Position numbers and translations under genes: made by a program. Shown here in pieces: positions 2,740 to 64,000 of a stretch of DNA of 64,000 nt; the first letter of the stretch is position 1, and every line of letters starts with the position of its first letter. This DNA comes from Hericium rajendrae. Lineage: Eukaryota; Basidiomycota; Agaricomycetes; Russulales; Hericiaceae. The notes beneath the pieces are model-generated. The model was not told where the DNA came from. It worked only from the letters and a program-made list of their open reading frames with translations, and did not search any database. The DNA lies in the NCBI GenBank assembly GCA_033439255.1, contig CM065878.1, positions 3,844,001 through 3,908,000 of the forward strand, read 5' to 3'.

Positions 2740-4787
2740 CGCGCTGCTTGATTGCATGCATACGCCGTTGTTCCATGGAGACCGCTAGCACCCTGCCTAT
2801 CTACCTATCTATGCTCCATGTTGTATTTTTCAAGCGCTATTTTCCCCCCGCTGGAGCATTCGGATATCAGACGCTTTCGGCCGAGTGCGCGGAAGCTTTA
2901 TCGTGACAATAACGGAGGTGTCCTTTGCAGGACGTGGCGACCAGGAACACGGCAGCTGCCTGGATCAAGAGGGTCCTGCTTTAAATCGGTGGCGCACGAA
3001 GGACCACTCGATTATGCCTGCCCATTTAAAATCCGAATGGAATAAACACCGATCTCGCTTGTGTCTCAAGTGGCTCAAGTGGCCGCCGTGCTAACTCAAC
3101 GTTGACTGCAGGAAGAAAGTTAGTAGGCTGACTAGTGGACGTCGGCAAGCCAGAGCTATTACCTATAGCATGACACGTACTGCATACGAACATTCAACGT
3201 AGACTGGGCATGCAGATCACTTGCAGAACTTTGCGTACGACGAAATTGCGTACGACGGCGCGTCGCTGCAATAGATCTGCACTGGTAATATCGGCCCGTT
3301 GGCGGTAAGCGATCGTTAAGTGGGTACGCTCGAGGCGTACCTGTGCGGCAGTCCACGACGACTTGGCCATGGGCTGCCATGGGCCGAGAGCGCTTCTGCT
3401 TCCGAATCTAAAACCTAGATGCGAAAAATGCGCGAATTCGAAGATGCGAAGCCTCGCCTCACGTGCGGATATTTAATCAAACACGTGAAGGGATTTGATT
3501 TGTATTTTGTCGGATTCCTGGGCGAGCACTGCTCGGCGAGCGAGGATGTAGCCCTACCTGTGTGTACAGTGGGGCGGGGAGCGGGAGGTCCTGGAAGCAG
3601 GATGTATGTTATGCGAGAGCGAGATGCGTGCAGATTCAAAAGGAGTTAGCCCCGCATGCACGTGGTGCAGTGCGTCTGGCCCACGATCGGTAAATGACGA
3701 ACTGGTCTGGCGAGCGACGCGTAATTTGCAGATGGCTGCACTGCAAGGAACCCGGCGGGGTATCCAGCGAGCTGGTCGCGGATGCAGCCGAGCGAATCAA
3801 CAATGCCTGTTCGCCAAACCGTCTTGGATTATCATGCAAGCGAGCACGTCGATGTGAATCTCGGTGTCTTGCGCGACGGCGCCGTCCTACTAAATAAATT
3901 CTTCTTGTCGCAGAGGCTCGTTCGGCTTGTGGGGGAGGACGGAGACTTGAAGCGCTGAGCTGAACAGATACGTCATTTGATAATGAAGAATGATCATAAC
4001 GGTCGACATGGTGATGCCGTTTGAAGATGGCAGGAATTCTGACGGATGGATGACGGTATATTTTTGCAAGATGCAGGTATCGGAGCGGCTACGCAAGTGC
4101 GCAAACAATGAGGACATGATATGACATTTACACAAGAGAAACGCATTGCAGAGAACACATGGCAGATGAAGTAATCGGCATGGGGCGCGGACGCTGGTGC
4201 GCCGCGCACTCTGCTCTGTTCGCGCAGCTCACGCGAAGTCGCGCGAAAATGGAGGCGGCGAGAAGAACGGAATACGAGGCCGTAAGCAAAAGGTTAGCTA
4301 AGGTGAAGAGCTGAAGTAGCAAGGGGCAAGACGAAGAAGAAAACAAGAATAATTTACATAATGCCGTGAAATAAGCGGAGAGTGAAAAACGAGGGTAACC
4401 TCCGTGCCGTTTTAGAGTTCATCTGCCCACGCTACAAGCGAGGCCCCATATATTGCCCCGTCCTCCTCCCCGTCACCAGCCTGTCCTCCCAGTTGTGTTG
4501 GAGTTTCCTCAAAATTGGTACGTGTTTCCTGCGTGCTTTACATGGTTTCCAGTGTTGAAACCAGCACAGCCGCATTGTAACAACAGCTCTTTCTAGACGG
4601 GCTTAAAATCGGCTTGCAGGTCCGTCATTTGATCGCCTGCGTCTGCTCTCATTCACATCGCGTCTCTTCGCAGAATTACCCTTTGTTCAACTAGCCCTAC
4701 TCGCTTTATTCTCTTTCGCCATTTGTTCTGCTTCTCTTTTTCCACATCGCATCAAAAAAACATCTTTAATTCTCTGTTCTAACCACT
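2740..4787. other. Intergenic, no gene supported
   Basis: About 2 kb between the UVRAG-like stop and the PUF start. Only short overlapping ORFs without recognisable domains are present. The right end (about 4640-4770) is pyrimidine-rich and probably the PUF 5' leader and promoter; a CT-rich run with few purines is common in fungal core promoters of well-expressed genes. Confidence 0.5.
4640..4787 (+). promoter_or_regulatory. Pyrimidine-rich leader of the PUF gene
   Basis: A CT-rich tract (TCTCTTTCGCC, CTTCTCTTTTTCC) directly precedes the ATG at 4788. No clear TATA box was seen. Assigned by position and composition only. Confidence 0.35.
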
Positions 4788-7700: not shown

Positions 7701-8525
7701 CGTCAGTTCACTGGCAATGTCTGCGCCTTGTCTGTTCAGAAGTTCAGCTCCAACGTTATCGAGAAGGTTAGTTGGCTCGGCGGCCATGTCAAAAGTTGAT
7801 TATTGACCTTGATCGCTCCACCTAGTGCATCCGGGTTGCGGAACACACTACCCGGAAGATACTGATTGAGGAACTTCTGAACCGTACGAGGCTGGAGAAG
7901 CTGCTTCGTGATTCCTATGGAAACTACTGTGTCCAGGTTTGCATCTCTATCTTTTCACACGTGCCGTCATGCTGATCGTCTGTTTCAGACTGCTTTGGAT
8001 TACGCTGAGCCTACTCAGCGCGCGCTCCTCGTGGAAGGCATTCGTCCGGTTCTCCCCTTAATCCGGAACACCCCGTATGGCAAGCGTATCCAAAACAAGT
8101 TGCAGCGTGAGCAGATGGACCATTACGGTGGAGGCGGCGGTTACCATCACCAGCAGGCCCTTGTGAACATGGCGCTCGGCAATCAGGGCATGGGTCTCGG
8201 ACACCCCAACGGCGGACGCCACATCCAGGCTAATCCCTTGGCGGACGTTTACAACGGCCAGAATAATCTCTACCCCCTTCAGGGCCAGAACGGTGGGGGT
8301 CTTGGACAGTCTAGTCTTCACGCCCCCCTCCACAGTATGCAGCCGCACTCGATCGACGGGTACGTCCTCCAGGGCAACTCTAGTCACAATCAGAGCATCC
8401 CTTCGCATGCTGGTGGCTTCGCAAACGCCTCTGGCTTCGCTGGTGTTAACTCCTTCCCGAACATGGGCATGGCCGGGACTATGAGCGACCCTTACCAACG
8501 TGCCTCGTTCGGTTACGGAATGTAA
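4788..8525 (+). CDS. Pumilio-family (PUF) RNA-binding protein
   Basis: Cytoplasmic post-transcriptional regulator that binds UGUA-type elements in mRNA 3' UTRs through eight Puf repeats. The ATG at 4788 starts a low-complexity N-terminus; a conserved basidiomycete block RMEHERQRALHRKIFEDQM lies at about 5040-5100 and AVSAPTTPPR at about 5170. The Puf array runs from about 6782 to 8100 with repeat cores such as DQHGCRYLQKKL, DPFGNYLCQKLLEYS, MHGTRAVQKMIDFL, LNGNHVIQKCLNKL, HRHGCCVLQRCIDHA, DPYGNYVVQYIL, SVQKFSSNVIEK and DSYGNYCVQTALDYA. The tail is Gly/Asn/His-rich. At least eleven introns are needed. One (about 7171-7252) has no GT donor in the right phase and may be GC-AG. Two single-base frame slips (near 5130 and 7060) interrupt conserved blocks; see findings. 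Resembles the Puf3/4/5 class; the exact orthologue is not assigned. Confidence 0.9.
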
Positions 8526-9488
8526 ACCTCCGCTACTGGTCGTCTTTTCAACGGTATCTTCATCATCAAACATCAGTAAACCCATTTGCAGTATCTCCAT
8601 ACTCATTCCGCTCTTTTCCCATGTCGCTCTTTTCAAGATACCACGTAACTTAGTCTCGCCTCGACTCGACGCAATATCTCCCATGTTCATTATGCTATCC
8701 CGCGGCACCTGCGATCGGGAACCACTCGTCCTCTCGTATGGCAATACCTCATGGCGCATTTGTATTCAAACCCCCGCATTTTTTATCGTTGCTTCGTGCT
8801 TTCTGTTGAACTTCTGTGTGAACATTTTTCTTGGTTGCCACATTGTACAGCGTACTTTCAATCCACCACCTCCACCTCCAGTAGCTCATCTGTTTAATAA
8901 CTAGCTCGTCGCACCACTATTTGTTTGTCATTCTGTAGTTATCCCCATCAATCTGAAACCGTTGCTTAGAGTGTTTGATTTGATGTTGGAGTGACAACAC
9001 CTTTTGTAGGTGGAAGCTTCAGTACGGATGGTTACAAAATGGTCGTATTCTATCTGAAGTCGGCGATCTCCACCAAGGTGAGCGTCAAGCGTTCGTGGGC
9101 GAGTTTCAGCAAGTTTGGACTTCATTACGATAATGCCCATAAGAGCTTATGTACGTATACCTCACTGCACTCAATGACCTTTGGGGATCTTTGCAAAACA
9201 CCAGTGCATAATGTGGGCCCTTGACGTCTCCTCGGCCTTACTGCTGGCGAGGCACGGTAGTAGTGGCTTGGTTTAATCTACGAAATGCCATTACAGAAGA
9301 AATGCATTCACACTTTCAAGCGATTGGTCGCGGAAGGTCGCAAGTCGGCATGGTTTCATGGTGGGTGCGATATCATATCATAGTAGTCGCATACAGCTCA
9401 GAGCCCAGATGACGCGTGCGGGTGATGAAGATGGTGGAAAAGGTGGATAACAAATGCAAAACAAGTCAACTACGCGTTCTCGAAGTGT
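8526..9488. other. Spacer between convergent PUF and RPS29 genes
   Basis: Holds the 3' ends of the PUF gene (+) and the ribosomal protein gene (-). Short ORFs here show no family signal. No RNA gene was recognised. Confidence 0.45.
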
Positions 9489-9786
9489 TTACCGGTTCTG
9501 TGCATTCCAATTGTTCATCAGAAAGAGTCTGCGAATAGGAAAAAGATACGCACCTTGACGAAACCGATCGCAGCAGACTTTTCGCGGAAGCACTGACGGC
9601 AGAGGTCGAGGCCATACTTGCGGATGAGACCGGCTTGGTGGGCGCAGAGGCGGCTGCACGCAAACCAGCAGACGGTCAGTACCCCGCCAGACAACCATCG
9701 TCCAAAGATTGCAAGGAAACTCACCACTGACGGCTGCCCTTGCCGTACTTGCGTGGACGGGAGAACCAAACGGCGTCGTGGGTCAT
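9489..9786 (-). CDS. RPS29: 40S ribosomal protein S29 (uS14)
   Basis: Small zinc-binding protein of the 40S head. Three exons, 9786-9725, 9653-9554 and 9497-9489, give exactly 56 residues, the normal length for this family. It starts [20 protein letters not shown], continues with CRLC, then [20 protein letters not shown] and ends AAIGFVKNR. CRLC and CRQC form the C-x2-C...C-x2-C zinc site. The last exon is only 9 nt (Asn, Arg, stop), joined by a GTGCGT...CAG intron. Upstream, a GTACGT...CACAG intron at 9852-9799 may split the 5' UTR just before the ATG, as is common in ribosomal protein genes. Assignment is essentially certain. Confidence 0.97.
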
Positions 9787-10061
9787 TTTGAGGGATTACT
9801 GTGTCGACCGACTCTTGAGCTGAGCAGTATCAACGACTGGCGGTATACGTACCTTGCGCCCGTGAACGGTGGATATGGCGTTGACGATGTTTCCTTGCTG
9901 CGGTATACCGCCTGGGAGGCGCAGGAGGAGATTATGTAAACTATACAGCACAACATTTAGAGTTTGCTTCGCGGCAGTCCCCGAGCCGAATGCTGCCGCC
10001 CTCGCGTCAATACTCCTCACATTGATTCTTCATATTAAATTATTTGCGATATTCTTATATC
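9787..10061. promoter_or_regulatory. Divergent region: RPS29 promoter/5' UTR and tRNA upstream flank
   Basis: Lies between the RPS29 start (-) and tRNA-Lys (+). Contains the candidate 54-nt 5'-UTR intron (9799-9852) of RPS29 and an AT-rich stretch (10020-10060) directly before the tRNA. Confidence 0.5.
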
Positions 10062-10162
10062 GCCCGCCTAGCTCAATTGGTTAGAGCGTCAGACTCTTAA
10101 GGCGGGTCAATCACCTAATTAGCGCAATCTGAAGGCTGCGGGTTCGACTCCCTCGGTGGGCT
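10062..10162 (+). tRNA. tRNA-Lys (anticodon CTT) with a 27-nt intron
   Basis: Acceptor stem GCCCGCC pairs with GGTGGGC (one G-U). The D-arm GCTC/GAGC is present. The anticodon stem is TCAGA (10089-10093) with TCTGA (10128-10132), and the loop CT-CTT-AA carries anticodon CTT at 10096-10098. The loop is split after position 37 by an intron at about 10100-10126, the usual place for nuclear tRNA introns. T-arm GCGGG-TTCGACT-CCCTC has one mismatch, and the discriminator is T. Internal A-box (TAGCTCAATTGG) and B-box (GGTTCGACTCC) are recognisable. Confidence 0.9.
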
Positions 10163-10832
10163 AGTAATATTTTGTCTGATTTTCCCAGTTTTACCTGTTC
10201 CTGGTGTTGGTTTGTTTTCGTTTTCTTCTAGTAAATTGGTTGGCCATAGGAATCGACTTCACGTCCAAGCCGCCGACGTTTGTGACAGAACAGTTTGCCA
10301 GTTGCCTGCACTGATTCATGCTTGTCTGCATATTAAAAATGGATGGTGTTCTATGGCCAGTGGTCTTCGAAGGACCTACCGAACCAGCGGACGATGTAAG
10401 AAGCCTTTTAACGCCCCGATGCCGTTGACGGTGATACACGTCCCGGCATTGTTTATGGAAATATAAGTGCTAACGACATTCTTGTCTGCTCAATATCTAG
10501 TGGCGACAGTGCAGTACAATTGACCCCAGTGCGAGTACAATTGACCCCATAGCATCCCCGCCAAGGGGCTCATGGTGATCATGATTGGATGATAATTGAG
10601 GATCGCACATATTAGTCTTACCGATAGAATAATGACCCTCCGCCCTCCGCCGCCGGAGAGCGTCCAGTGGATGGTATTAAGGCAGAGTTGAGGATATTGA
10701 TTACGTCCGGAGGCGGGCGATTCTACTGTATTAGTAGTTGAACATGCGTCCGGATGCACAATGCAGAAAGCAGAAATTATACAAGCCCGGGCACCACGAT
10801 AATGAGATCATCAGCCACGCACTCGATATCCA
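10163..10832. other. Intergenic, contains a short direct repeat
   Basis: Between tRNA-Lys and the 3' end of the GYF gene. No gene supported. A 16-bp direct repeat is listed separately. Confidence 0.45.
10513..10549. repeat. Two direct copies of a 16-bp motif
   Basis: AGTACAATTGACCCCA occurs at 10513-10528 and again at 10534-10549 with a 5-bp spacer (period 21). Confidence 0.8.
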
Positions 10833-13800
10833 CTATGCCCGACCACCCTTCTTTTTCTTGTTCACGACCTTGAACCCACCCCACTCCGACTGCTGCGACG
10901 GCTTCGGCTGTGCCTTGAGCACATCCGCGATAGATGGCTGCTTGCCGGCGCCCTTTGCGAGATGCGGCGTCCGCTTTCCGCTTGGAGACAAACTCTTCCG
11001 CAAAGCGACGGCCGTCCAATGTCGTGCTATTTGCGTAGATAAGCTCCGAGATGATCTCCTTGGTCGTGGAATCGACATCAAGAGGAAATGTCAAAAGCAT
11101 TGACATGATTTCCTCAACTGTTAATCATCCAAAGAAAAATCAGTGTACGACTCATGTAACGTAGTCCAGAGACGTACAGTTAACAGAGCTATTGAGGCCC
11201 TTCAGTGAGTCGGTCAACCATTTCATGAAGTCGGTGGAAGGTGCGATTGGAGTCTCCTCGATCTTGGCTGCTGCGGGTGCGGCTTTAACTGCTGCTGGGA
11301 CGACAGGTCGTGCTGCGGGAGTAGCAGTCGTAGCCCGAACGGGAGCAGCTGCCGTGGTAGACGCAGAAGGCGTCACAGCAGGCCGTACAGCTGTAGTTGC
11401 GACAGGTGTCGACGACTTGCCATTGGACCCCACAGTAGTCCAAGCAACCCCTGCAGACTGTGAAGGTTGCGGAGACTATCGATTCTAATGTTAGATCGTA
11501 CGGAAATAGGAAGTGAGCCTGCGCCCACCTTGGTCGTAGTCTCTGCGTAAGCACGACGAGCTGCGGCTGCGGCAACAGTGTCCTTTGCGGCCAGCTTCTT
11601 ACGTCTCTCTTCCTCTTCTTGAATCTCCTTCATAGTCTTCTTCGTAGCTTGCGGCTTCGTGCCGTTTGTCCACACGGGCGCGGGGCTATTAGCGGCTACG
11701 GAAGTAGCAGGTGTCGAGGTCGCGGTGTCTTTGACCGTTGGGATACTACGCGATGAACCAACCTTCGATGTTGGAAGGCCCCAGGACGCAGTGAAGGATT
11801 GGGCCTCTTCTGCTGGGGTAGGAGCCGCACCCTGAGCAGCCCGAGTAGCGCGCTCCCGCTCCCGTTCAGCAGCCTTGCGAGCCTCTTGCTTCTTGGTCTC
11901 TGCCTCTTGGATCTCACGCAAGCTTGGAGTGGCGTTGGATACCTTTTTCTCCTCTTCCACCGTGACCGTTGACCAAACTGGCTTCGCTGGGACTGCGGAT
12001 GATGCGGTAGACGGGCTCTTCGCCTCCTGCGGTGGAGAAGGGGCAACTACGGGAGTAGGTGCGAGGCGAGTTGTCGAAGGCCGACGAGCTTTGCTTGGGG
12101 CTGGCGGTGTCGCATCAGGTGTTGGAAGAACAGGTGCCGTCTCCATCGGCGCCTGTTCAACAATGGGCTCGGTCGACTCAACAGGGCTGGGTTCGTCATG
12201 ATGCTTGTGCAAAGCCTCTTCTTGCTCCTGCTGCTGGTTGTGTTGACCAAGATTGTCAACCGTAAGACTGGTGGGCCCATGTGCGGGTCCCCAACCATCG
12301 TCGGCGATGCTTTGGGAGGCAGCGTGCCAAGGTGACTGTTCGTCAACTACAGAGGCAGGTATGGAGCCCTGAGTCGTCCGGGCCCATGAAGAGGACTGTG
12401 GGGGCACCGTTCTTACAGAGGTTGTGTTGCTGACAGTTGGAAAAACATTCTGGTCAAACGGTCCAGGTCCAGCTGCAGGCCGTCTCGGAACGTTGTCATC
12501 ATTGACACCCCAACGGGACTGCGTAGCCGACCTTGGCTGCAGGACTGTGGGCTGCTTTCACGTGTATTGTGGGCTGTCCAGATGAGGGGCCTAACGATGT
12601 CACAATGGGAGGAACTTGGGCTGGGGCTTGTGGAGAGGCATACTGCATTGACGGCGACTGCGAGTAAGCTTGACTGAGGGCTGGCGTAGCGTAAGGTGAT
12701 GGGTTCTGCAGGCTGTTCGTATATTCTCCAAGCACTGCGCCCCCGGGATGATCGCGTTTCTCTTCATGTAGGAAAGAATCGCGAGTACCCAAACGAGAAA
12801 GATCGCGCTGATTAACTGCGCCAATGTTACCACCAAAGGGACCACCATAACCATCGTTCTGCGGACGGCCGTTAGCAAAACCTCTTGAAAGAGCCGCTTG
12901 GGACGCAAATGTAGGATCCACCCCAGGGATAGTACTCGGAGTGAAAGGACCTGTGGAATCAATTAAGTCCATTCGTCCGGCCGTCCCAGCAGGCCAAAGG
13001 TTCTGACTGGGATGAGTCTGGGAACCGAGGCCGAAACCATCGATGGAAGGGGTCCCAACGGCAGGCGCATTGCTAAATCCAGATCGCACGGCAAATGCAT
13101 CGTAGGGCGAGTCATTGAAGCCTGCTCTCCTTGGGGCCGAAAAGGTAGGGGGTTCTGCCATGAAAGTACCATTCCTCGAGCCACCCGGGGAACCACTGAC
13201 AGGGAAGACATGCCCACCAACGCGACCAGCTAATGCAGCGGGGTCGGGAGACTCACCGAATCTCCCAACACCAAACGACGAGGACGGAGAGTTGGACGCA
13301 GTGGAACCGGAAGCAAAATACGAGTCCAGAGCCGCAGTATGTATGGATCGCAAAGGAACTGGCTGATATGGCGCAGTGAAGCTGCTAGCTGCGGCAGCGC
13401 TATCCAGTGACGGCTCAGTTGGACGAGAAAGGCCTGGGGGTGCTTGATCTCGGACGACAGGACTCAAGAACAGCTTTTCTCCACTGGCTCGACGGGCAAG
13501 CTCGCCCACGGATGTCCAGTCATGATCCAGGTGAGTCCGTTTCATCAGCAGATCAGCGCTGAAATAGCCACCGTCATACCACTTCTGCATGATATCAGCA
13601 CGGAAAGGCCCTTGTAAAATCAAGTCAGTAGATATATCAGACATGAGGTCGTGGATAGACGTACCTTGTATCTGACCTTGCGGGTCCAAGTAAGACCATT
13701 CGACAGTAGCCAAGTCAACGATGCCCGGTGGTGGCTGGGTAACGTCCGGGACTTGACCTGACTGCCCTCCCCCAGTCGTCCTAGGATTCTGACCTGAAGC

Positions 13801-30818: not shown

Positions 30819-33045
30819 TTATTGGTCATAGCCAGGCCCTTGCAAGGAGGCCATCCAGATTCGCGTTTTGTACAGCCTGGAAATAGAACGAGTCCGTGAG
30901 CATATTGTCAGAATAAAGACAGCGGACGGCTTACCGGAAGAGCTCGCGAACCAATTCGCGGAAATCGATTCTCTTTTCGGCAATGAAATAGAACGTTAAT
31001 TTACGCCGGTCCCTGTACACCACGTCAGCGTATTGCTCTAGTACACGAAGGTGTTGCACGTACCATTGGTACTCGGCATCGATGACCTCCATCGGCAGCT
31101 TCTTCTGCCTGACCTTGGACTGGCACAGTTGAAGCGCCTTCATTTCGTCTTGGATCTTCGTCACCAGCAGCCTGCCAAATCATCAGTTATATAATCCCTC
31201 AGAACGACCAAGTCACTCACTGCGTATCCTGCGCTCCCGCCTTGCCATAAATCATCTTCGGATTAATCTCCTTCTTTGCCCCCGCGCTAGGCGGGCCCGT
31301 CGTCCCGCCTGGGCTTACTGGCGCATCGCCTCCCGCGCGCGCAAGTTGCTGCCGCTGGAACGCCTCCACCTCCGCCAGCGTGATCGTGTCGTTCACGACC
31401 TTGCCGAGGTCCTTCCCGCGGTCCGCCTCGACGATCACGAGGTCGCCGACGCGGATGTCAAGCGCGAGGTCCGTCGCATAGAACAGGTCCGTGCGCCCCG
31501 CCTTGAACTCGACGATGTACAGCGGGCACGAGGCCGGCACCGCGTGCAGCGGTACGCCCTTACCGAGCTCGCTCAGGTTCGCAGACGCGCCCGACTCGGA
31601 CGGTCGCCGCTGTGCAGATGATGCGAACATGCCTTGCATGCTGCGACCGCTCGTGGGCGAGATCGGTGAGGTGAGGCCCACACCGCGTCCGTAGGAGGCG
31701 GGGACACCGTCGTGCGTCTGGATGGCGATGTATTGAATACCCTGGCCGGGGATGAACCGCGCGGCGAGGTTTGACGGATGCTGTTGTTGCTGGGAGACGA
31801 AGTCTTGCGGCTGGTTGAATCCGGAACTCTCGCCGGAGGAAACTCCGCCTTCGCTGGGTGATCCGAAGCCCTGCCGCGGTGCAAAGCCGCCGCCTGGAAT
31901 CGACAGGTTGAGCGGCTGGTAGGGCGAAAGGCGTTCTGCGGTGGGCGGGCTGCGCGAGAGGGGCGCGTAGATGGGCAGAGACGACGGCTGGCTCGGCGGC
32001 ATGTTTGATGACGTTGGTCCGGGACCATCCCTGCTCAAGCTCATCAGGTTGAGGTCGCTCGCAAGATCTTCGTCCGTGAGAAGAAGCCCTCCACGACCAT
32101 ATGACGATCCAGGGAAGATGGTTGGGCGCGTGGGCTCGTCGGTATCGAGTCCCGGGGCATTGAATCCGACGATTCCGCGGCGTGGTTGAACAACGCTGAC
32201 ACTGTGCCGCCGGCTTGTCGTCCCGCTCCCGCCACCACCGTTCTCATCCCGCGGCGGGTTCATGCCCGACCAGAGTTCGCGAAACGCGGAACCGTCATCG
32301 AGGAGGATCTGCCCGACGTCGCGCATGAACGGGCTCATATTCGACGCATCCACTTGCTGGCGGCTGCGCGAGTAGCCATTGCCCATCGGAGCGCCTGTCG
32401 GCGATGACGAGAAGTTGGACGGAGATCGCCCCGTGGCACCAAGGACCCATACCGGCTTCCGCCTGGAGGTTTGATCTCGCCGTAGCGCGAGCCCGGGATA
32501 CTCTGTGGATTCGAGCCGAGGCTCGAGTCGCCCCAAGGAGGCAAGCCAGACGACAGCGGGCTGCCTATAGGCTGCGGACGCGACGTCGTCGCGAGCGACT
32601 GAGACCGACTGCGCGTGAGATCCGCCGCGTAACTTCGCCCGCGCGCCGGGAGCGACGGTGGGACGTAACGCTCGTCATACGTGTCGGAGAGCGCCTCGGA
32701 CTCATCATCCTCGAATGTGGATGTGAACGCCCGGCCTTCATGTAGCGAGGAGAGCGACCCCTGAAGTCCCGGTGCCGTCGCGGAGAACGAGGAGCTGCGG
32801 GTCGGGATGGTGGGTAGAGCGCCAGTGAAGCGCTGGCTGGCCCAGGGCGAGCTGCCGCGCCCGAGATTCGGGGAGAGACCAGGCTGAGGCGGGAGGAAGT
32901 TCTGCCCGGATGTGCGTGGGGGCTGGCTCGCAGCCCTCTCCCTCAGAGATTGAGGCCCGGAGTCGGAGCCATGGCCGGAGACGAATCGATTCCTGCGATC
33001 CGCGTCATCCGGCTGCTGCATACCATTCGTATTGGATTGAGACAT
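30819..33045 (-). CDS. PSP1-domain protein
   Basis: The PSP1 C-terminal domain is named after yeast Psp1, a suppressor of DNA polymerase alpha mutations linked to P-body/mRNA roles; molecular function is unclear. The start at 33045 (MSQSNTNGMQQPDDADRRNR) begins a long Ser/Pro/Gly-rich region with GSRYGSL, then MSPFMRDVGQILLDDGSAF. The domain starts around YIVEFKAGRTDLFYATDLAL (about 31530) and continues IRVGDLVIVEADRGKDLGKV. Two introns then join KALQLCQSKVRQKKLPMEV to DAEYQWDRRKLTFYFIAEKR, and a third leads to LFRLYKTRIWMASLQGPGYD and the stop. The order and the basic RDRRKLTFYF block are diagnostic. One single-base frame slip lies near 32445. Confidence 0.88.
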
Positions 33046-34212
33046 TGCAAGCAGTGTGCCCAGGTTGAGGATGTGCTGAAGGTTCTGTACGGCCGCCAGC
33101 TTTGCGTCGCGTGGGTGTGTCAGAAATTATTGAAGGACGTGAAAAGCGGGTCGTTTCGGATATTTCTCGGCCGAGTGTTTTGCGTTAGGGCAAGAGGTCG
33201 TGGGTACAATCTGGGAGGCTGTGAGTGGATAGAGTTGCGAAGAATGAAGAACGATGGACGCGCACATTACACTTGTGTCGCGGGAGCGCAGAAATGCAGG
33301 TCGTAAAGTCGTGGGCCGAATCTTGTGACCCTATGAGTCAGACGGACAGTCGGTGCGGCTCTAAGCTGCAGAAAGCAATAAGAAAACGAGTAAGAGAGTC
33401 TACTGGGTGATTGGAAGACGACAGCAAGCAGGTCTATGAGGGTAGAAGCGAAGAGGAGCAGATGAGGATGAGTGGGGGACGAGAGCAAGCCATGGGAGCA
33501 GCGGCGCTTGACCGAGACCAGCTGATCGTGCCTCGTCCTCGGCTCAAGCTCCTTTCCCCACTGCTTTCGCTTCCGCCACCCATCACATGTCCCCCGCTCG
33601 TGTGCTTCACTCCCGACGCCCGACACCGCCCCGACGTCCTCGTCGTCGTCAGATATCCCCGTGAGCTCAGCCGCATGACAATCACAGAGCGCGCTCCACC
33701 ACGCGCACAGGCCATCTGACCTCAGTTCTTCATTCATGAAGAACATCAAGCTATTCGTACCCTATTCTCGCAGCCCTGCCAGTCACTGCGAAGCGAAGCA
33801 TCCGGAAGCAATCCTCATGTCTACAGTCGTTACGGTAAATAGCACGCCGTTTGAATCAACATATAGTATGCTGTACAGCCCATATGCCTCCGAGCGAGTC
33901 CATCTAAGCCTGACGTCAATCAGCCCCTAATCACGCGCCGAGATCCGTTCCCCAACATGCGTCGGATGTCGTCCGCCGCGTCGACGCGGCGTGCGACGTG
34001 CGCGAGACATCCACCCCTGTGGTACTGCAGTCGACATAGCGGACACGGCCCAGCCAACTGGTGACCTCGAGGTCCGCGCTCACCGAGCGCGAAGATCACC
34101 GGTCCGAAGCAGCACAGCCGGCAACACCCCGACACCTGGAAGCGAGCGCAAACCCGTCCTTCCCATTGGACCCGCGGAGCCAAATGGCAGTCGATCATCG
34201 GTGCGGGGACGC
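33046..34212. other. Intergenic between PSP1 and Rgp1-like genes
   Basis: About 1.2 kb containing the PSP1-gene promoter and the Rgp1 gene 3' flank. ORFs up to 160 codons (33267-33749 minus) overlap others and show no family signal. Confidence 0.4.
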
Positions 34213-37202
34213 CTAGACATCAAAGACGACGTCCATTGCTCGGAACGCAGTGTTCCCCGGCCAGACCTTCACCGGCACCTCGCACTCCACCGTCTCGATC
34301 CGCACCGGCTGCCAGCCCTCCTCTCCCGCTCCGAGGTCCACCTCGCCCTCGCCCAGGCTTGCCGCGTCCTCTCCCTCCGACGCCTCGTCCCCATCGTGAA
34401 ATCCGCCTTCCCCAGGTCCGAGAAACGTGCTCGAAAACAGCGCTGACCAAAGCGCGGCGCAACCGGCGGGCTCGGCGGCGCGGGCGGCGTCTTCGGCTCG
34501 GGCCGCTCGAGCGGCGCGATGCCCGCCGTAGGCACCCATGCGCTGCCCCACTCGCCTCGCGGTCCGTCGCGCACGAGCTGCTTCATGCGTGCACTGTCCG
34601 CGACCGCGACGAGCAGGGACAGGCGCACCTTCCACTCGAGGCCGCCCAAGGGCGGCTCGCCCAGCGAGATTTGGAAGGCAGGTGACGCGTCGGACGGGAT
34701 GTCGAGCGTGAAGGTCGTGCGGAGCGCGGAGACGACGAAGGAGGAGTGGTATTCGGCGTGCACGCGGCGCATGTGGCGTGCATCGGATGCGGAGGACAGG
34801 GATGCGGGAAGCGATTCGTGTGCCTCGAGCATGGCGGAGAGCTGCGCAGAGTGAATTCAGTAATTGTAGTTGAGAGTAAGAAGATGCCCCACCTTGAGCA
34901 CCCTTGCCCGACTGTCTCGTTCATTCAGCTCCACGACGCCTACACGGTCTCACCGAGCCGATACGCCGCCTTCATGAACGTAAGCACCGCAACCTTCACT
35001 CCGTCCTTGTTCACATCGTATGAAATCTTCTTCGGCACGCGCGTCAAGATCTCGACCGCTTCCCGGCACCCCTTCAGTGTGCCCTCGCTCTCGCGGTCCT
35101 GATCTTCGTGGAGAGGCGATGGTGATGGTGATGACGAACCATTTTGCTTCTCACTGTGCAGCTGTTCGGCTGATGCGAGCAGACGGCGGCCATATGTCCG
35201 CAAACTGCCAACGGATCCCTGAAAGGAGCTGCAGAAACTTTCGTAGCAAGTCAAGTTCAGCATCCGGTTTATCTAGGCGCAGACGGACAGAACACTCACA
35301 TGCAGGAGTCGGCGCCCGTCTCTTCATTGTGCCATTCAGCGCTTTGCTGATATCCTCCGTTACCTTCGCCTGTGGTCTATTGAAGCTGGCCATGGCCGGC
35401 ATCAACAAATTATAGGGTAACTGCGGCTTGTCGACTAGCACCAACGCGTGAGCCCAGCCTCTTGACAACGAAACGCCAGACGTACCGGGAAACATGGTTA
35501 TATACCCGAATTGGCACCTTCATAACCCGGCTATTGCTGTTCGCCCCGCTCGGCGTCGCAGGCCCCTGGTTCGCACCCGCGCGACACGTCCCCACGGACA
35601 GCTGGTACGAGAAGCGGAGCGTGCGGCCCTTATACGTCGGGGGGAGGTACGACGGCAGATTGACCGCATACGCATCTGCACACGCAATCAGCTCACACCC
35701 CGAGAAACCTGAGAAAACACGCACACGTCCGCGACTCGCCCGGCCCGAGCGTGAGATCGACCGCGAGCATCGCCGGCGGGATCTCGAACACGGGCAGCGG
35801 TGTCTCCGGGTCCCACTCCTCCTCGGGCATCCCAAGCCCCAGCCCCACGCCTGACGCTGCACCCGCATCCGGCGCGAAGAACGACGCGACGTACGACGGC
35901 GCGCGCGCCTTGTGCCCGCGCACGAACCCGCCCGGCCCGTGCGGCGGCGCGGGCGACAGCAGCGAGAACAGGCTCGCGGACAGCGAGGAACTGCGTGCAT
36001 GCGATTGCCGGCGCGGGCGTGGGGTCTCGATCGCCGCGCCGCCGTCGAGCGAGGACGTGATGTCCATGCTGCCGCCGCCGCGCGGGTAGCGTTTCGCGAC
36101 GCGCGTGCGGAGGGCCGCGAGCGCGGGCGAACGCGCCGGCGGACTGCGGGGGCGCGAGCGCGAGCGTGCCGGTGAACTGGACATACGCGTAGAGCACGAG
36201 CTCGGTGAGCGGCGGAGGGAAGGTGGAGGAGAACGCGCTGCGTGGGGGCAGCGGTGTCGTGCCGTTTGGCGGTGGGCCGTGTCCGAGGCCGAGTTGGGAG
36301 GGATGCCGTGGCGCAGGTGGCGGCGGCGGGGGAGGAGCGCGTGGTGGGTAGGAATGTGATGCGGATTTAGCTGCGGAGCCCGTGGTGAAGGGTGCGGGCG
36401 TCGGGACTGGGGAGGGAAAGTTGGGCGTAGGAGGTATGGGAGATGATCCGGATTCGGCGATGGGGTCGAGGGAAACCGCGAAGGTCGTGGTGGAGGCGGA
36501 GGCGCTTTGGGGTATGGGCGACGTGACTAGGGGCGGGACACCCTGTGAACCGTCGAAAACGGACTGTTTGCGAGCGTGCGGATGATTTGCTGGGAGGACT
36601 GGCGTACGCGCGAGGGGCGAGGAAATGCGGGGAGAGGAGGGCGCTGTGGAATGTTATATGTCGGACAGGGCATGGTGAGCTGTAATTTTGTGGGGACGTA
36701 CTTAATATTCGTCCATCGTCGTTTCGTTGCACGGCGCTGAGCACTTTGCTTCCTGCCCCGCTGCGCAGTTGTTCATCGAGGTCATGAGGCGATAATACAT
36801 GTACAGACAGTGACTTCCCGCCGAAACGCTTCTTCATGTCCTTGCTCAGCTCAGGGAGCTCGTCCGCGCCCTTCGGTGGTGAAAGGCGTGAGCGTCCAAT
36901 GAGCCCCTTCTTTGTCGGTGCATCTTTCACCACAGCAGACTTCGAACTGATGTAGACGCAGCGCGAAGGAGACCAGGAGAAGTAGGCGGACGCGCGAGTG
37001 GTGCTGAGCTGACGGAGTGGGCACTGCGCTTGTGTGTCTGCGACGGGCGCTGAGAAGATGGGGATTGCGGGGTGCGTATGTTGGTGATGGTGACAGTTAC
37101 AGAGAGGGGTTCGCCAGCGAAGAAGGAGGACTGGGAAGGAGTGACGACGACACGGAGGGCGGTATCTATGTCGGCCTGCGTGGATGGCCCAGGTGCGGAC
37201 AT
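34213..37202 (-). CDS. Rgp1-like protein (Rab6/Ypt6 GEF subunit)
   Basis: Rgp1 partners with Ric1 as exchange factor for Rab6/Ypt6 at the Golgi. The start at 37202 gives the family N-terminus LRVVVTPSQSSFFAGEPLSV; DMKKRFGGKSLSVHVLSPHD follows. A Ser/Pro-rich linker leads to ELVLYAYVQFTGTLALAPP, then GGGSMDITSSLDGG, EWDPETPLPVFEIPPAMLAV and LPPTYKGRTLRFSYQLSVGT. Further blocks: SNSRVMKVPIRVYNHV, SYDVNKDGVKVAVLTFMKAA, YRLGETV...GVVELNERDSRARVLK and MLEAHESLP. It ends WQPVRIETVECEVPVKVWPG followed by NTAFRAMDVVFDV. At least eight exons. Codon use is very GC-rich (third-position C/G) compared with neighbouring genes. Two frame slips, near 36135 and 34455, interrupt conserved coding sequence. The frame is also open upstream to 37310, see findings. 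Confidence 0.87.
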
Positions 37203-56301: not shown

Positions 56302-57240
56302 ATGAACCCGTCATCATCGTCTTCAGGCGTATCCTTAGCCTTACTCGCCGATTCACCCCCGCGCATGATGGACGGCGCGGCGATGGACTACTTTCTCATG
56401 GAACTCGTCCAGACTGTCCGGCATTCGTCAAAGGTAGCTACTGCCCGAGCTAAAAAGGTTGAACGAGAAATGATAGAGGCTGGACTGCTACCATCGCCAC
56501 CTCCAGTTCCACCGGCACTAAAGAAGAAAGACCCACAGCAACGGGATTCAATGCAGCGAGACTCCATGGGTAGCGGAAGCGGCAGTTCACTAGCGAACGC
56601 AAATGCTGCCAAAGGCCCAGCGGATGAGGAGGAGGAAGAGGTCAGAACACGCTTAGAAGCTATTGGATTGCATGTCGGTGCGAACATCTCAGAACGGCAA
56701 GTTGCCTCGCATCACGAAGGTGCCTATGTTCTCATTGCGTTCGCAGACTATGCCATGATCGGCCAGGATTTTCGGACACTTTGGATACCATTAAGTTCAT
56801 CTGCAAGGATTTATGGTCGACTTGTTGGGACAAGCAGGTAGATAATCTAAGGACAAATCATCGGGTAGGATCTTCATCATGTCCGTGGCTACAGCATGTT
56901 TAGGCGCGATGTAGGGTGTGTACGTTCTGCAGGATAATACTTTCAAGCCGATCGCACGGTTGTCTTCTTGGGATGGACGGGCTGATGCGGCACGACGAGC
57001 GAAGCTAGTAGGTGCTTTTTTTGTCCTCGAGATGAAGTCTGTCTGAAACCCGTCCAGTACGTTGCAATGCCGGCGGGCATCATTCGAGGAACATTGTTAC
57101 GGCTAGGCATCCAAGCTGTGATCGTTCCCGAAATCAACTTACCTCAATGTGCGCGCTGAAACAATGATTGTCACGGTTCCGCTGCATCTTACACTTCTCT
57201 TACAGGTACTTTCCAGGTCAAACTTCCCAAAGGCACCTGA
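56302..57240 (+). CDS. TRS33: TRAPP complex subunit Trs33/TRAPPC6 (Bet3 fold)
   Basis: Small core subunit of the TRAPP vesicle-tethering complexes, which activate Rab1/Ypt1 at the Golgi. Five exons, 56302-56696, 56747-56864, 56915-57007, 57058-57148 and 57206-57240, give 243 residues. Blocks: MDYFLMELVQTVRHSSKVAT, KKVEREMIEAGLLPSPPP, a Ser/Gln-rich acidic insert, RLEAIGLHVGANISERLCHD, RPGFSDTLDTIKFICKDLWS, TCWDKQVDNLRTNHRGVYVL, QDNTFKPIARLSSWDGRADA and MPAGIIRGTLLRLGIQA, ending CTFQVKLPKGT. Intron 1 (56697-56746) uses a GC donor, GCAAGT. No frame break. The ATG at 56302 is chosen because the upstream part of the frame overlaps the UBR1 start. Confidence 0.93.
56697..56746 (+). other. GC-AG intron of TRS33
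   Basis: Donor CG/GCAAGT and acceptor TTCGCAG/ACTA, 50 nt. Removing it restores ISERLCHDRPGF, a conserved TRAPPC6 block; no GT donor in phase exists nearby. Confidence 0.85.
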
Positions 57241-60110
57241 GCCTCCGCCGCCAATGGCCTTCAATGATTGGCCCTGTGCGAGTTCCAACTCGCCAACCGT
57301 TTCTGAGGTGCATTGAGCGGTCGGATCTCGGTGCTATGGCTCAGACCGTAGTTCCGGTCAGAATTACGGACATGTTGCTACCGCACTGCCATTCCATTTA
57401 CTGATGATTCAGTGTAATTTGAAGTTACTTCAAGCCGCCTCGTAGTGCTGCCACCTCCGACCATGTGGGGAAATGGTATATCACTCGAGCGTGGTGTCAG
57501 ATCGTGTCTTCCGATGTGGGAAGGATTTGCATTTCAAACGATGCTGTGACATGCATCGATATCAGCAGACAAAAAAATTGTGACTGAAACTTGCAAAGTG
57601 CGCAGTCAAATTATTCAGATATGAGGCATCGTCTACGTCCCAACAGAAAACATCTGATCTACATGAGGATTGCATTGAAAACACTGCCGAGCTAAGACAT
57701 CGGATCTCAACTCATGGAGAACTCGACTTCTAAATGTGTCTACGAAAGGCCGGGCATGCAATGCAGGCCATGTCAAATATCCACGTATCTACTGACACTC
57801 GGCAAAGCGTAAAGGGCCCCGTTTGAAGATTTCGAAGCAACTGGTCTTCACTGATGGAAATCTTTTGAGAACCTTGGCTACGCGTGCGCTTTGCGCTCAT
57901 CCTGTTAGTTTAGGGCACAGGACTCGCGCAAGTCCCCATGCAGCGCCGCGGAGCAACCTGCAGAACGTTGTTCAGCGTCATGAAAGACATGATCCAACCA
58001 TTGAACCGTGAACGAAGTGATGGAGAACCTGAAAATGTGATGCAGTATCATCGGCGTATGACAAAAGACAATACATATGCGGTTCAGACGCTGTTCATGG
58101 CATACAAGAACCTAACGCTCGAAGTCCGGGACCAAGTCAGAAGCAGGAGAACCTTTCAAACTTCCAGTCAGGGTCCACAGGTCCGTCCCTGCCAACACAC
58201 TTGTCAAGCACAAGATACCCATTTCTAATGCCTCCGATGCTTCCATCTTCTACTAATACAAGCGAACGTCGGGGATGCAGAGCTGCAAAAGCCGAGGTGC
58301 TCGATGGGGTTCAACCTGGTGGGGTACAGCATCCCCACGGCGAGACATGCCCTGAACCATAGACTTTGTTTCACAGGTTCGTGGCCCCTTCGCGATGATC
58401 TCACGATAATGCCTCTGCATGAAGATGAGTTCTGTCAAACTTCGGCGCCTCCGGTGGCAATCCGGTGGTGACCAACAAGCGGAGGCATGATACTCCAGAA
58501 ACGGCGCTTCGCCGCCTGGCTCGCTCCCAGCCTCCAGGCCCTTCCTGAATACGACTCCTAAGGCTGTGGTCATCAGGTCCCTCCAGGGCTTCCTGGAGAT
58601 GCACGTATCAAATGTCGTGCATGTCATGCGAGTCATGCGTCGCTCGCGTGGCATTTCCGCTTATCCGAGCCCATCGACTCCGAAGGGTTGATGAATGCCG
58701 TGGCATCAGCCCTGCAACTTGAATCTGAATCTGGAAGATCATGCGGGAAATGTCCATGATATAGATCGCACTGCAAATCTTTGATGCACTTGCCGTTACA
58801 CATGTCATGATCTTCCACAATTTACAGACGATCTTCCTTGGCGACTTCGACCCGGACTCATCGACACGAGTCTTGGAGACTACGGCCTTGCGTCAAATCG
58901 GACGCCGCCGTGCTCTTCACAGACACCCCGTGGTCGTCGCCGGTCCAGGCAGGAAGCGTCATATGACAAAGCGTGCGCCTGAGGCCGATGGCAGAAGGCA
59001 GACGTCAATTAGTAGATGTGTACACGACTAGTACAGATTTGTCTCCCAAAACCTTAGTTTTACTATATGGCGCATACGAACTACGCTTATTAGAAGCCGG
59101 CGCGAGTTTACCCTATTGCCAGCGATCCGTGATTTGGATGTGATTTTTCTCCCCTGTAAATTATGAGACACGGCGTCGTCCAGTACCTGCTCCGGATCTG
59201 TTCAACCTGTTGCTACTAAGTTATCACCGGCTCGAAGAACTGTCGAGGCCAGTCAAAATTGAGAAGCGCCGCGCAGGACTTGTGGATTGAGGTCTATCAA
59301 GGCGCGTCCGAGATGGCGGCGCCGGCAATATGGCTGAATTCGATGTCCCCAGGCCAAAACACTAGGTTCAAATAATGCCATGCATATCACCAGAGAATCT
59401 CCAGTTACTTATGGCCAGCGAAGGCGTCGCATGAATCCGAAACTATTCGATAACGAGAAAAACGTCATTCTTCATGCTGAATTTCATGTGACTTGGCGAA
59501 AGGCAAACATCCAAGCAGAACGGAAAAGGGTACCAGGTCCACGATGAATTTGGCTGTCGAGCGTCCGTCCAATCTTCCTGGTCCTCCGAAAAAAAAAAGA
59601 CTGTTCAACAAGCCGACCTGGGTGCCTTGAAGACGCCCACCGATGCTACCGAAATGCCCGCAGCCTACCCTTGATCACAAGAAAGCAATCTGCCGTGGCT
59701 ATTGTGATTCGCAATAATGGTCTGCCAAACTTCGCCCGAATCGTCCTGCAACAGAAATGGAATCTGAGACCTGAGGTACGGATGCACATCGATGACGACT
59801 GGAACGACCGGCGGAGAACCCGCCGCTGCAGCGCTTACCGCGAGTTCTTCACGAAAAATTGACCCAATTGAGCGATATCGATGGTGCCAGAGCCGACTCG
59901 AATTCGGAATCCCGGTGGGCGTTGAGAAGCGTGCGCATGGGTAGGTAGCCGCCAATGATACTCTCTTTGACCAGAGCCGAAAGCCTAAGAACCATATGCG
60001 ACCCGACTAGGTGAACAAAGGGCCCGAGAGGATCTGCGTCAGGGACATCGAAGATCTTTTAATGAGATCCCCAGACAGCAGAAGTATGACTTCGGACGTA
60101 CCAGTCTACG
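57241..60110. other. Gene-poor stretch without supported genes
   Basis: Nearly 2.9 kb with only short overlapping ORFs on both strands (largest 58253-58654 minus, 133 codons) and no recognised domain, RNA gene or clear repeat. Could be old, decayed mobile DNA or simply spacer. The composition is ordinary until about 60.1 kb. Confidence 0.4.
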
Positions 60111-60936
60111 GTCCTGTCCGGAACCCTACACGAGGTGCTGACCCCCCTCCGTCCCGGACCTCGGGAACCCCACGGACAATGCCGCGGCGGCCCGGCGAAG
60201 GCGCGAAGGGCAGGAGGAGGACGTGGCGGCGGGCGTCCGGGAGAGGGTGAGCGCGCGCGCCCGACGTGCGGTAGCCATCAGTAGATAGCATTGAAATGCA
60301 GACGGCGAGGGCGCGTCCTCGAGGCCCACCAGAGCGCGAGAGTGAGGCAAGGGAAGAGAGAGGGACCTGCCAGCGAAGCGAAGCGCGCTAGAGCGTGCTG
60401 GGGGACCTCGGCAAGGCGTGAGGCGCCCAGGAACGGTGCGCAAAGGGAGCGCCAGCGAGAGGACTGTTGTTCTCCCACCAGGACTGTCAATCGTCCGGCA
60501 GGTAGGGAGTTTCGTGCCCCCTCCCTCTCGCGCTCTGCCAGCAGCAAAACCGGGCGCAAAGCCCGAACGACCGTCTTCAATGACAGTCCCAACGACAGTC
60601 CCTCCTGCACGGACGAGGATGACCAATCGGAGGGACGTGCCCCGGGGCCCATGTCCGCCTCCACCTGCCCGCCTCCCTTCCTCCCCCCCCCACCCACTGT
60701 TCACCACCACTGCACCATTGCTGACGAGCCGCCGTGCACGGCCGCCACTGCTGTCTCCAGTGCCGCCACCATCACCACCCACCAGCGGCTCTTCCTGCCG
60801 GACCTGTCTGCCATCACGGCGCACACCATCGCGTCGACGATATCAGCGGCGCTCGCCTTGCCTTCTGCGAGCCTTTCGCTCGCCGACGCACATTTCCCGT
60901 CGTTCCTCTGTGTTCTCACCGAAGGCCCTCAACACC
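60111..60936. other. GC-rich leader region of the right-hand accessory block
   Basis: A sharp rise in GC content begins near 60110 (CCCCCCTCCGTCCCGG, GCCGCGGCGGCCCGGC). Open frames on both strands (60126-60824 minus; 60291 and 60418 plus) are low-complexity Pro/Arg/Ser translations typical of GC-rich non-coding DNA, so no gene is called. Probably the 5' flank of the PIN-like gene. Confidence 0.45.
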
Positions 60937-62772
60937 ATGGTTCTCAGCGGTGTGTGGAAGGCATGTGCCATGCTGAGGCTCCATGCCGCATCCTCAGCAC
61001 AACATTGCTGACTTTCCACCTCTTTTTCTTTCCAGGATGTACAGGATTCCGTGCAGCAGTCGACGCTCGAGGCGCTCGCGGCTGCGAAATACCCCATCAG
61101 CGCAACGGGCGGGCACCCCACGTTCGTCCTTGGCGTGAATGCCAGGTGAGCGAGCTGCTGTACATCATCTGTCTGAACGTGCCGGGCTGACGATTTTTTT
61201 TCTTGCATGCGACAGCGGCTGGGTCCACGAATGCAGAGTGTACCAGCCCACGATTACACATGCGGCTCTGGCCCCGGAGCTCGAGGTGCTCTTCACGCGC
61301 CTCGCACAGCTCCTTCACGCCCCCGTTGTGCCGCTAATCGTGTTTGACAGACCGTCCATGCCCAAGGACAGGCGCGCCAAGATCACTACCCGGTTCACGG
61401 GCCCGCTCGAGCGCGGCTTGCGACAGCTCGTCGTCGCCTTCGGGTTTCCGTACTACATGGTGCGTGTATACTCTGCAAAGCCGGGCCACCGCCCCGCTCC
61501 GCTCTGCTGATGCCCGTGCTGCAGGCCCCCGGCGATGCAGATGCCGAGCTCGCAAGGCTCAACATCGACGGCGTTGTAGATGCCGTTGCCAGCCACGACG
61601 GGCGCGCTGTGCTCTTCGGCGCACAGTCCGTCGTCTGCAGGTGGGTCCCCCGCTCTCGCTCACAGTGTGTGCCGTAGGGTCCAGATACTGATGGCGGTGA
61701 TCTTTCGCCGGCTGTTTTTTTTTTTTTTTTTGCCCGCGACGCACTTCCTGTCACCTGTCAGCCCCGACCCTGGCCAGTCGAGCGGCACAGAGATTGTCGT
61801 GTACGACGTGCCACGTATGTCGGGAGGCGGACAGCCGTCGCTGTCGCAGGGGGGACTCTTGCTGCAGTCCCTCTTGCGCGAAGCCCACCTCTACCATGTG
61901 GGTACACGTGCACCGTTTTTTCTGTGTCTGCTGCTGACGTCTACTTGTACAATGCCAAAACAGCGCGGCATGCGCAGGGTCCCTGATTCCTTAGCGAGCA
62001 TGTTGGCACACAGTGGTCTTGGGGATGCCTTACTGGATGCAGCACGGGGCGGGGGCGGGAACGCGTCACAGTGTCAACCATGCTCCCTTGCCGCCTGGTG
62101 CGATGCCCTTCGCCACATTCTACGCGGCAATTCGCAGGGCTTCCTTGACAGGCCACATCGTGCCTTGGCTGAGTCCATCCCAGACTCATTCCCTGATCCT
62201 AGTGCGCTTGAGCTCTATGCTCGACCGCTCACTTCTTGGTCAAACGGGGGGACAGCCCCCGACTCTGATGCCATATCCCTCCGACGCCCCGATCTGAAGA
62301 TGCTCACGCTGCGGTGCGAGCAGCTCTTTGGCTGGGAGACGGCCGAGGACATGTCCCGCCACTTCCGGCCCTTTGTCTGGCCGGGCATGTTCCTTCGGGA
62401 GCTCCAGATCCACGTATGTATCGTTGGCATCATTGCACGGTGACCTGCGGTACTCACAGTCTGCAACAGGATCATTTGCAGCCCGGGGCTGCACCACCAG
62501 CCGCCGTCCAGATCTCCGCATGCTGGAGCGGCAGCAGTGGCGACAAGCTCCGCATTCTGTACGACCCGAGCCGATACGTGGACATCAGCACCATGGCGCT
62601 GCGACGGCTCTGGCCAAAGACGTCTCAGCCTCCGAGCTCGGATCGAGACATGCAGGATGTGAGTGAGATGGGTGGGCTGCCTGCCGTCGAAGGGATCAAA
62701 GGGATCTGGGTAGCAGCGGCGTTGCTCGAGCGCTCGTGTCCCGCGCTCGTCGAAGCCTTCAAGGCACCGTAG
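60937..62772 (+). CDS. PIN/XPG (FEN1/GEN1-like) domain protein with degenerate active site
   Basis: Relative of structure-specific 5' nucleases. The start at 60937 (MVLSGVW) mirrors the MGVxGLW start of the family, followed by an intron with possible GC donor (60961-61035). Next TLEALAAAKYPISATGGHPT, FVLGVNASGWVHEC (family GIDAS, the metal-binding Asp is Asn here), LAQLLHAPVVPLIVFDRPSM, the I-region AFGFPYYMAPGDADAELARL then GVVDAVASHDGRAVLFGAQS (GEAEAE becomes GDADAE, and the SDDSD-type pair becomes SHDGR). The later GGDY block is not present. C-terminal part contains LKMLTLRCEQLFGWETAEDM and IKGIWVAAALLERSCPALVE. Six or seven introns, one with an 18-T run. Probably not an active nuclease of the usual type; similar PIN-like genes are common in mushrooms. 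Confidence 0.75.
61715..61732 (+). repeat. Poly-T run in an intron of the PIN-like gene
   Basis: About 18 T in a row upstream of the acceptor; may simply be an extended polypyrimidine tract. The length is prone to sequencing error. Confidence 0.7.
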
Positions 62773-62806
62773 CTTCTGTCCCGACTCTCGCTCCGCTCCA
62801 TCTCGT

Positions 62807-62893
62807 ATCTGTAGCCCCATTTATTTTGTGTATCTGTAGCCCCATTTATTTTGTGTATCTGTAGCGCCTGTAAAGGCCTTTTGTGTATCTCTC
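62807..62893. repeat. Short tandem repeat between the PIN-like and recombinase genes
   Basis: TGTATCTGTAGCCCCATTTA plus TTTTG, a unit of about 25 bp, occurs twice and is followed by two diverged partial copies (TGTATCTGTAGCGCC, TGTATCTCTCTCTG). It lies in the 245-bp gap between the converging stop codons. Confidence 0.75.
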
Positions 62894-63018
62894 TCTGTAG
62901 CATGCAATATGATGTACATGACTCATTCCTCGGGCAACAGGGTGCTTGCTACGACAAAGACGAAACATAAAATTCTAAGGGCCAAAATAAGAGTGAAGAC
63001 AGAATGCGGGCAGTGAAA

Positions 63019-64000
63019 CTATGCACAGAGGCATGTCCGCCCACATGCCGTGCACAGATCACCTGTCTGCTTGTTCGGATTGAAGAAATCTTCATGCTCG
63101 ACTGCTTGGTCTGTCCATGAGAGCAGGTACTTGAAGATGGTGCCCGTATCCTGGTTGTCTGACCAACCGCCCCAGTCGCAGATCTTCCGGATTGGCCAGC
63201 GCAAGGTGGTCGACAGGTACTGACAGCCGCCTCGACGAAATGAGTGTGTTCCGTACATCCGCGGGTCAAGATTAATGTCCGTCATGTTGTTTCGAAAGCA
63301 CTCGAGGAATGACTCGGATGACTGGAATTCCAAGGTCAGCACACAGCCGAGGCTACTCGACTCGATATGAGCCCGGGCTCGCTCACCATTTGCTGGCTCG
63401 GGCTGTCGCTGAAGCGACCCGACTTCACTTTCTTGCGAAAGACGAATCCGGTCAGGGAGCCGCGCTCATTGCAAGCTATCCATCGCGAGATGGCCTCGAC
63501 TGGGTCTAGCCACGGCCTCTCTTTGTTGTGGTAGAGGACGAATGGAGCGATGCCTGGATGTGATTCGGTCGAGCAGTCAGCTTCGAGTGTGCTGAGAGAG
63601 AGAATAGAGAAGACGCACCGCCGGTCTGATGTGTTTTCCGGTACGGAATCGTGACTCGGAGGCGCTCGGCACCCGTGGAGTCGCCGCAGCTCTCGAATGT
63701 GAGCCAATGCCATTCAAACCTCAGCACCTCATCAAAGCGGAGAAGGCATATGAATGCGAGAACGTAGATCGCATTCAGCATGATGTGTATGTCACGCCCA
63801 GCCCATTCCTCGGGATGTGCTGCCTTGTGCTTCCGCGATGGGCCTGCGTAGCTGTCCTGTCGAAAGTTCATGTTGTACTCGTAGAGCTGGCGAATCGTGT
63901 CTTCAGTAATGGCACGTGCACTTTGCACAACTTCGCCTCCCCTCGCCTGCAGCATAGTAAAAATGTCACCGGATTGTTTTCATCAGCTTTGGCTGCCGAG
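63019..64000 (-). CDS. Tyrosine recombinase (Crypton-like DNA transposon/integrase family), 5' partial
   Basis: DNA breaking-rejoining enzyme; the gene enters from the right edge. Exons: about 63950-63620, 63560-63390 and 63320-63019. Order of catalytic parts: first Arg in ICLLRFDEVLRFEW, Lys in TIPYRKTHQTGG, then APFVLYHNKERPWLDPVEAI, the HxxR box in YGTHSFRRGGCQYL, the Trp/His position in KICDWGGWS and the nucleophile Tyr in TIFKYLLSW. All catalytic residues expected for the family are present and frames join cleanly. The C-terminus is Cys-rich (CTACGRTCLCA), possibly zinc-binding. Converges with the PIN-like gene. The N-terminal part, which would carry a DNA-binding domain, is outside the window. 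Crypton is the nearest class I can name; the exact family is not proven. Confidence 0.82.

Follow-up and report, generated by a model that had tools for sequence, protein, structure and literature searches.

A tyrosine recombinase gene (TR) and a gene of the PIN/XPG type (PIN) stand tail to tail at the right end of a 64,000-nucleotide window of Hericium rajendrae DNA (contig CM065878.1, here C1; C1:3844001-3908000), and the locus raises the question of whether the two travel together as a mobile element. A first, sequence-only reading of the window had proposed a mobile pair with its right end outside the window. The analysis covered one genome, a 46.8-Mb assembly of 19 contigs. The favoured reading, to which we assign a probability of about 0.78, is a DNA transposon about 8.9 kb long and moved by TR through an AGAAGT core. 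The copy in the window (copy A) is an intact-looking tyrosine-recombinase DNA transposon of three genes. Joint mobility of TR and PIN was supported, and the pair became a trio with a third gene, T, that starts beyond the window.

Copy A spans 8,942 bp (C1:3904080-3913021), has AGAAGT on either flank and is cut by the window edge. It runs from window position 60080 to 5 kb beyond the window end. The left direct repeat (window 60080-60085) forms its left edge, 31 bp outside the start at 60111 given in the sequence-only reading. The right repeat (C1:3913022-3913027) lies 5 kb beyond the window; extending the sequence rightward recovered both the outlying right end, at C1:3913021, and boundary repeats of the kind that reading had proposed to search for. 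A second copy (copy B) on contig C11 measures 8,911 bp and is flanked by AGATGT on the left and AGAAGT on the right. Each copy has PIN on the plus strand, TR on the minus strand and T on the plus strand, and gene order and strands are identical in A and B.

TR is encoded on the minus strand by six exons (481 amino acids) from an ATG at window position 64812, outside the window, to a stop at 63019. Exons 6, 5 and 4 lie in the window (63019-63321, 63387-63553 and 63619-63946) and exons 3-1 outside it (C1:3908031-3908812). The residues R286, K320, H407-x-x-R410, W434 and Y446, which we take to be catalytic, are all present and are invariant in copy B, and the recombinase domain had rightly been described as apparently intact. 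PIN (window 60937-62772, plus strand) was modelled with seven exons encoding 460 amino acids (60937-60960, 61036-61145, 61216-61459, 61525-61640, 61762-61897, 61964-62413 and 62470-62772), which bears out the multi-exon structure proposed earlier. Its introns are GT-AG apart from the first, which is GC-AG. The tail-to-tail orientation with TR was confirmed, with a gap of 246 bp rather than 245 bp. T was found in DNA fetched to the right of the window (C1:3909063-3911032, plus strand, six exons, 533 amino acids), where it lies head to head with TR.

Genome searches used one exon-sized query per gene. TR gave five matches (seven candidates scored), with C11 at 84% identity and three others at 36-45%; PIN gave four, with C11 at 59% and two others at 37-39%; T gave two, the other being C11 at 56%. 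Close matches to all three genes occur together nowhere else but on C11. The claim that TR and PIN travel together holds in that the close TR type (84% exon identity) occurs at two places in the genome, each of which also carries PIN tail to tail. Full gene models of A and B are 68.5% identical for TR (479 sites), 54.1% for PIN (399 sites) and 57.4% for T (509 sites).

The ends of the element were located by comparing the two copies. DNA homology between A and B is confined to A 4095 to 12976, in 12 pieces, in a comparison of 20 kb with 26 kb, and outside the element a translated comparison gave scattered short pieces only, of at most about 34 bits, with no collinear run. Blastn homology begins 15 bp inside A's left edge, and the conserved left terminal sequence (window 60080-60175) is 84% identical to copy B over 81 bp (60095-60175). 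On the right, the last 65 bp align at 82%, and AGAAGT is the point just after which the alignment stops in both copies. The 1.9 kb of non-coding DNA before A's right end (A 11033-12913) has no match to copy B. The left edge itself is marked by a further sequence, C2:1183125-1183174, which matches the first 50 bp of A's left end at 86% and starts exactly at AGAAGT. This sequence, which lies inside a tandem duplication, is probably better seen as an end relic; an attB-like reading of it was set aside, as the match is not carried on by A's right flank. The other unit of the C2 tandem duplication contains a second, 34-bp match to A's left end.

The insertion site of copy B carries the case for movement. 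B lies inside the first open reading frame (ORF) of an Ngaro-like retrotransposon (C11:285592-299762), and joining its flanks at a single AGAAGT restores one continuous reading frame. A protein query from the rejoined ORF gave nine matches, namely the two B flanks and seven other places with 36-63% identity. All seven of these other alignments run through the site without an element, and in the best three relatives (on C6, C10 and C12) the stretch around it has an equal number of codons, as in NQPQEVVFQAAR compared with NQPSALVFQAAR. The host retrotransposon has split direct repeats, a layout that we take to be that of Ngaro, and its frames match an RNase H-like domain (E=0.022) and a tyrosine recombinase (E=0.0011), both below the Pfam cut-offs. 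Since B interrupts an ORF whose paralogues are uninterrupted, B moved after the retrotransposon had inserted. The retrotransposon's repeat pairs differ at 6 of 302 positions (plus a gap) in one case and 6 of 154 in the other, or 12/456 (about 2.6%). If the repeats were identical at insertion, the arrival of B is more recent than that event, and far more recent than the split between A and B. Site and timing together identify B as a mobile unit rather than an old paralogue in place, and its mobility is well supported. Mobility of copy A is supported by analogy. For the empty site that the sequence-only reading had proposed to seek in related strains, B has a counterpart in the uninterrupted paralogous sites. 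For A, the joined flanks matched no other place in the same genome.

These observations bear on whether the three genes are instead an immobile host cluster, domesticated or anciently duplicated. The copy number of two, the high A-B divergence and purifying selection on the genes would fit such a cluster. For A versus B, the Nei-Gojobori ratio of nonsynonymous to synonymous divergence (dN/dS) is 0.12 for TR (dS 1.83), 0.26 for PIN (dS 1.43) and 0.19 for T (dS 2.15). The corresponding uncorrected ratios of proportions (pN/pS, the more conservative measure, with bootstrap ranges) are 0.28 (0.24-0.34), 0.45 (0.39-0.52) and 0.44 (0.38-0.50), which indicates purifying selection on each gene. A host cluster does not account for B interrupting a retrotransposon ORF, for retrotransposon repeats that differ far less than A and B do, or for the lack of flanking homology between the copies, and we consider it very unlikely, though less so for A taken alone.

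Several findings weigh against the transposon reading. There are only two copies, within one genome; dS between them is near saturation; B's left repeat carries one mismatch; and no empty site was found for A. The TR match to Phage_integrase in Pfam (E=0.0012) falls under the curated cut-off, as it does in both copies. The N-terminal piece of T matches SAP at E=0.011 in B and gives no such match in A, again below the cut-off. The sequence-only reading was to be given up if the two genes were rarely neighbours and neither boundary repeats nor an empty site appeared; within this genome the repeats, the uninterrupted sites for B and the shared adjacency were all found.

The flanking hexamer informs the mode of movement. 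Three of the four edges, two in A and the right one in B, carry the same 6-mer, and the left edge of B departs from it by one mismatch, which fits core-dependent integration by a tyrosine recombinase. The pattern also argues against a target duplication, which another transposase would be expected to make with a sequence that varies from site to site. An unrecognised transposase moving the element, with TR serving only as a resolvase, could be sought in T, whose reading frame is open in copy B as is that of TR, and for which the weak SAP match is the sole hint of a known domain: whole T has no Pfam match, and among solved structures nothing convincing was found for it (best E 0.62). The same 6-mer at two independent insertions is typical of tyrosine recombinase cores and not of target duplications, so this explanation appears highly improbable. 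As an insertion target, no tRNA or other RNA gene was found in the six sources scanned (ARAGORN was run in its bacterial setting).

In the proposed mechanism, recombination by TR between the AGAAGT copies at the two ends would free the element as a circle, which TR would then join into another AGAAGT. T, and perhaps TR as well, may bind subterminal RGACYGTC repeats near the ends. In copy A, GGACTGTC lies at window position 60481 and GACAGTCC at 60582 and 60594 (60481-60601). The two terminal regions contain six RGACYGTC sites in A and five in B, for Markov expectations of 0.22 and 0.28, and none of 5000 Markov simulations reached the observed count for either copy. This simulation is a description and not a test because both the motif and the region lengths were picked after the positions had been seen. 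Closer to the ends, GGACCGTC sits 11 bp inward of the right core in both copies, and its mirror image lies 21 bp inside the left core, as GACGGTCC in B and as the near-mirror TACGGTCC at the same place in A (window 60107-60114, minus strand). The 10-bp difference in offset corresponds to about one helical turn.

The role of PIN was approached through its relatives. PIN matches XPG_I above the cut-off in both copies (E=2.7e-9 in A and 2.3e-9 in B) and XPG_N in B only (4.7e-5). Its best solved relatives are 5cnq (E=1.5e-22) and 6grb (2.1e-22), labelled 'Nuclease-like protein', along with 5co8; we take 5cnq/5co8 and 6grb to be the Chaetomium GEN1 Holliday-junction resolvase. Two other GEN1-like genes of the genome, drawn from its six other XPG_I places, were used for comparison and read GIDAS, APGEAEAE, SDDVD and GGDY. 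In both PIN copies GVNAS replaces GIDAS, the final acid of SDDVD has become R, and D stands for the first E of APGEAEAE; in A the second E is D too. The GGDY aspartate is H in A. A has thus lost three active-site acids, two of which are missing from B as well. The gene had been called degenerate, which fits the active site; the reading frame in copy A is intact.

An active PIN nuclease with a rearranged active site could resolve the recombination junction. The XPG_I matches agree with this, as do several retained acids, namely FD in FDRP/FDGL, the acid that opens the SDDVD motif, D for E in APGDADAE/APGDAEAE, and the AAD aspartate still present in B, the last of which also counts against a PIN that has lost its function in cutting. 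The acids replaced in both copies, the H in A and the full set kept by the two other GEN1-like genes make an active enzyme unlikely. Judged from its sequence, PIN may bind rather than cut, as the lost acids together with purifying selection suggest.

PIN, a GEN1-family protein minus active-site acids, would then bind or shape the four-way junction made by TR without cutting it. We tentatively propose a class of eukaryotic tyrosine-recombinase transposons in which a GEN1-family Holliday-junction resolvase, recruited and with its cutting switched off, may act with a SAP-like protein as a dedicated factor that holds or steers the Holliday junction made by TR. We are far less certain of what T and PIN do than of the transposon itself. 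PIN, and perhaps T, could equally be passenger cargo, with TR alone moving the element as in single-gene Cryptons and PIN serving the host or the element otherwise, such as in repair after excision. Copy B PIN is frameshifted near its end, in the last exon, so PIN may be dispensable or B may be decaying, which tells against the recruitment proposal; PIN is likewise without a match (best E 0.44) in the 9 kb inspected around each of three more distant TR loci. The cargo explanation has to accommodate a PIN gene kept at the same place in both copies under purifying selection, and two active-site acids replaced alike in both, the pattern that would follow if the element had retained a protein of altered function. 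It is possible, and we hold it with reserve.

To our knowledge, eukaryotic tyrosine-recombinase transposons are mostly known as small Cryptons, and their movement has hardly been studied. An element with defined ends, a defined 6-bp core and a natural partnership between a junction-making recombinase and a protein whose family binds junctions would allow direct tests of how such transposons are controlled by accessory factors. Some of the GEN1-like and recombinase genes scattered in fungal genomes might be accounted for in this way too.

In its working the element is closest to Cryptons, minus GCR1_C and plus two extra genes. In the part of the Crypton account drawn on here, 4- to 6-bp direct repeats are proposed as the recombination substrate in a circle model, terminal inverted or long direct repeats are absent, and some oomycete Cryptons carry an added C48 peptidase; that part tells of none with a GEN1-like or SAP-like gene (PMC3212892). 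The element resembles Cryptons in the wide sense in the R, K, HxxR, W/H and Y residues of its TR (with a Pfam match below the cut-off), in its 6-bp direct repeats (AGAAGT/AGAAGT in A, AGATGT/AGAAGT in B) and in having no long terminal repeats. It differs in its three genes, its subterminal repeats and the lack of a GCR1_C match, by which it also departs from CryptonF: no GCR1_C was found at E<=1 among the six proteins scanned with Pfam. DUF3435 was likewise not among the Pfam matches at E<=1. By Pfam the element is therefore neither a CryptonF nor a Starship. Starships are fungal tyrosine-recombinase DNA elements that carry other genes, as this element does; the present element differs from them in lacking a DUF3435 match, in its small size and in having TR as the central rather than the first gene. 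Ngaro/DIRS elements also use a tyrosine recombinase, and an Ngaro-like retroelement is the insertion site of B. Unlike them, the element shows no reverse transcriptase or RNase H among the Pfam matches of its three proteins and no split direct repeats of its own in self-comparisons of A and B. PIN resembles GEN1/Yen1 in its nearest solved relatives and its XPG matches, and differs in the lost acids and in lying within a transposon. In the literature searched there was no recognised description of a TR-PIN-T trio; papers outside that literature may describe one.

Searches beyond this genome gave no relatives of TR, T or the left end. Among solved structures nothing convincing was found for TR (best E 0.59). 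Profiles of TR and T in viral contigs yielded 48 and 64 pattern stretches and no relative, TR in a collection of genome contigs yielded 148 stretches and no relative, and a 20-base left-end pattern had no match in the viral contigs. The contig searches say little because the collections hold prokaryotes and viruses.

The genome contains eight XPG_I places (nine exon matches), two of which lie beside a TR, both with T. Further GEN1-like genes were seen at C2:3205402, C18:169624 and C14:875167. The C2 and C18 genes keep the active-site motifs, and no TR match was found in the 9 kb fetched around these two; the neighbourhoods of four of the eight XPG_I places were examined.

A second family of TR elements was observed at C2:1924001-1933000 (TR at C2:1928933), C6:3123001-3132000 (C6:3127389) and C3:1704001-1713000 (C3:1708447); in the 9 kb at each of the three, PIN matches did not surpass E=0.44. 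A partner gene of one family, or what remains of it, lies convergent with TR at every locus. The N-terminal piece of the partner was scanned at two loci and matches SAP weakly at both (E=0.0015 and 0.023, below the cut-off), a likeness to T, whereas T is head to head with TR rather than convergent. Homology between T and the partner genes was considered but not shown: the C-termini are not alignable, with an hhalign probability of 0.3% from very shallow alignments. The C2 and C6 loci share short conserved ends about 6 kb apart with mirrored GGGACAC/GTGTCCC, and the C6 TR has a stop in its HxxR motif.

The DNA around TR and PIN had also been described as GC-rich. It is 65, 61, 58 and 55% GC over window positions 60001-64000, against 49-54% over 57001-60000. 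Positions 31001-37000 are equally rich (56-66%), so GC content alone marks nothing special here. Between T and A's right end lies a direct repeat of 100 bp (C1:3911702-3911898; period 97 bp, 99% identity).

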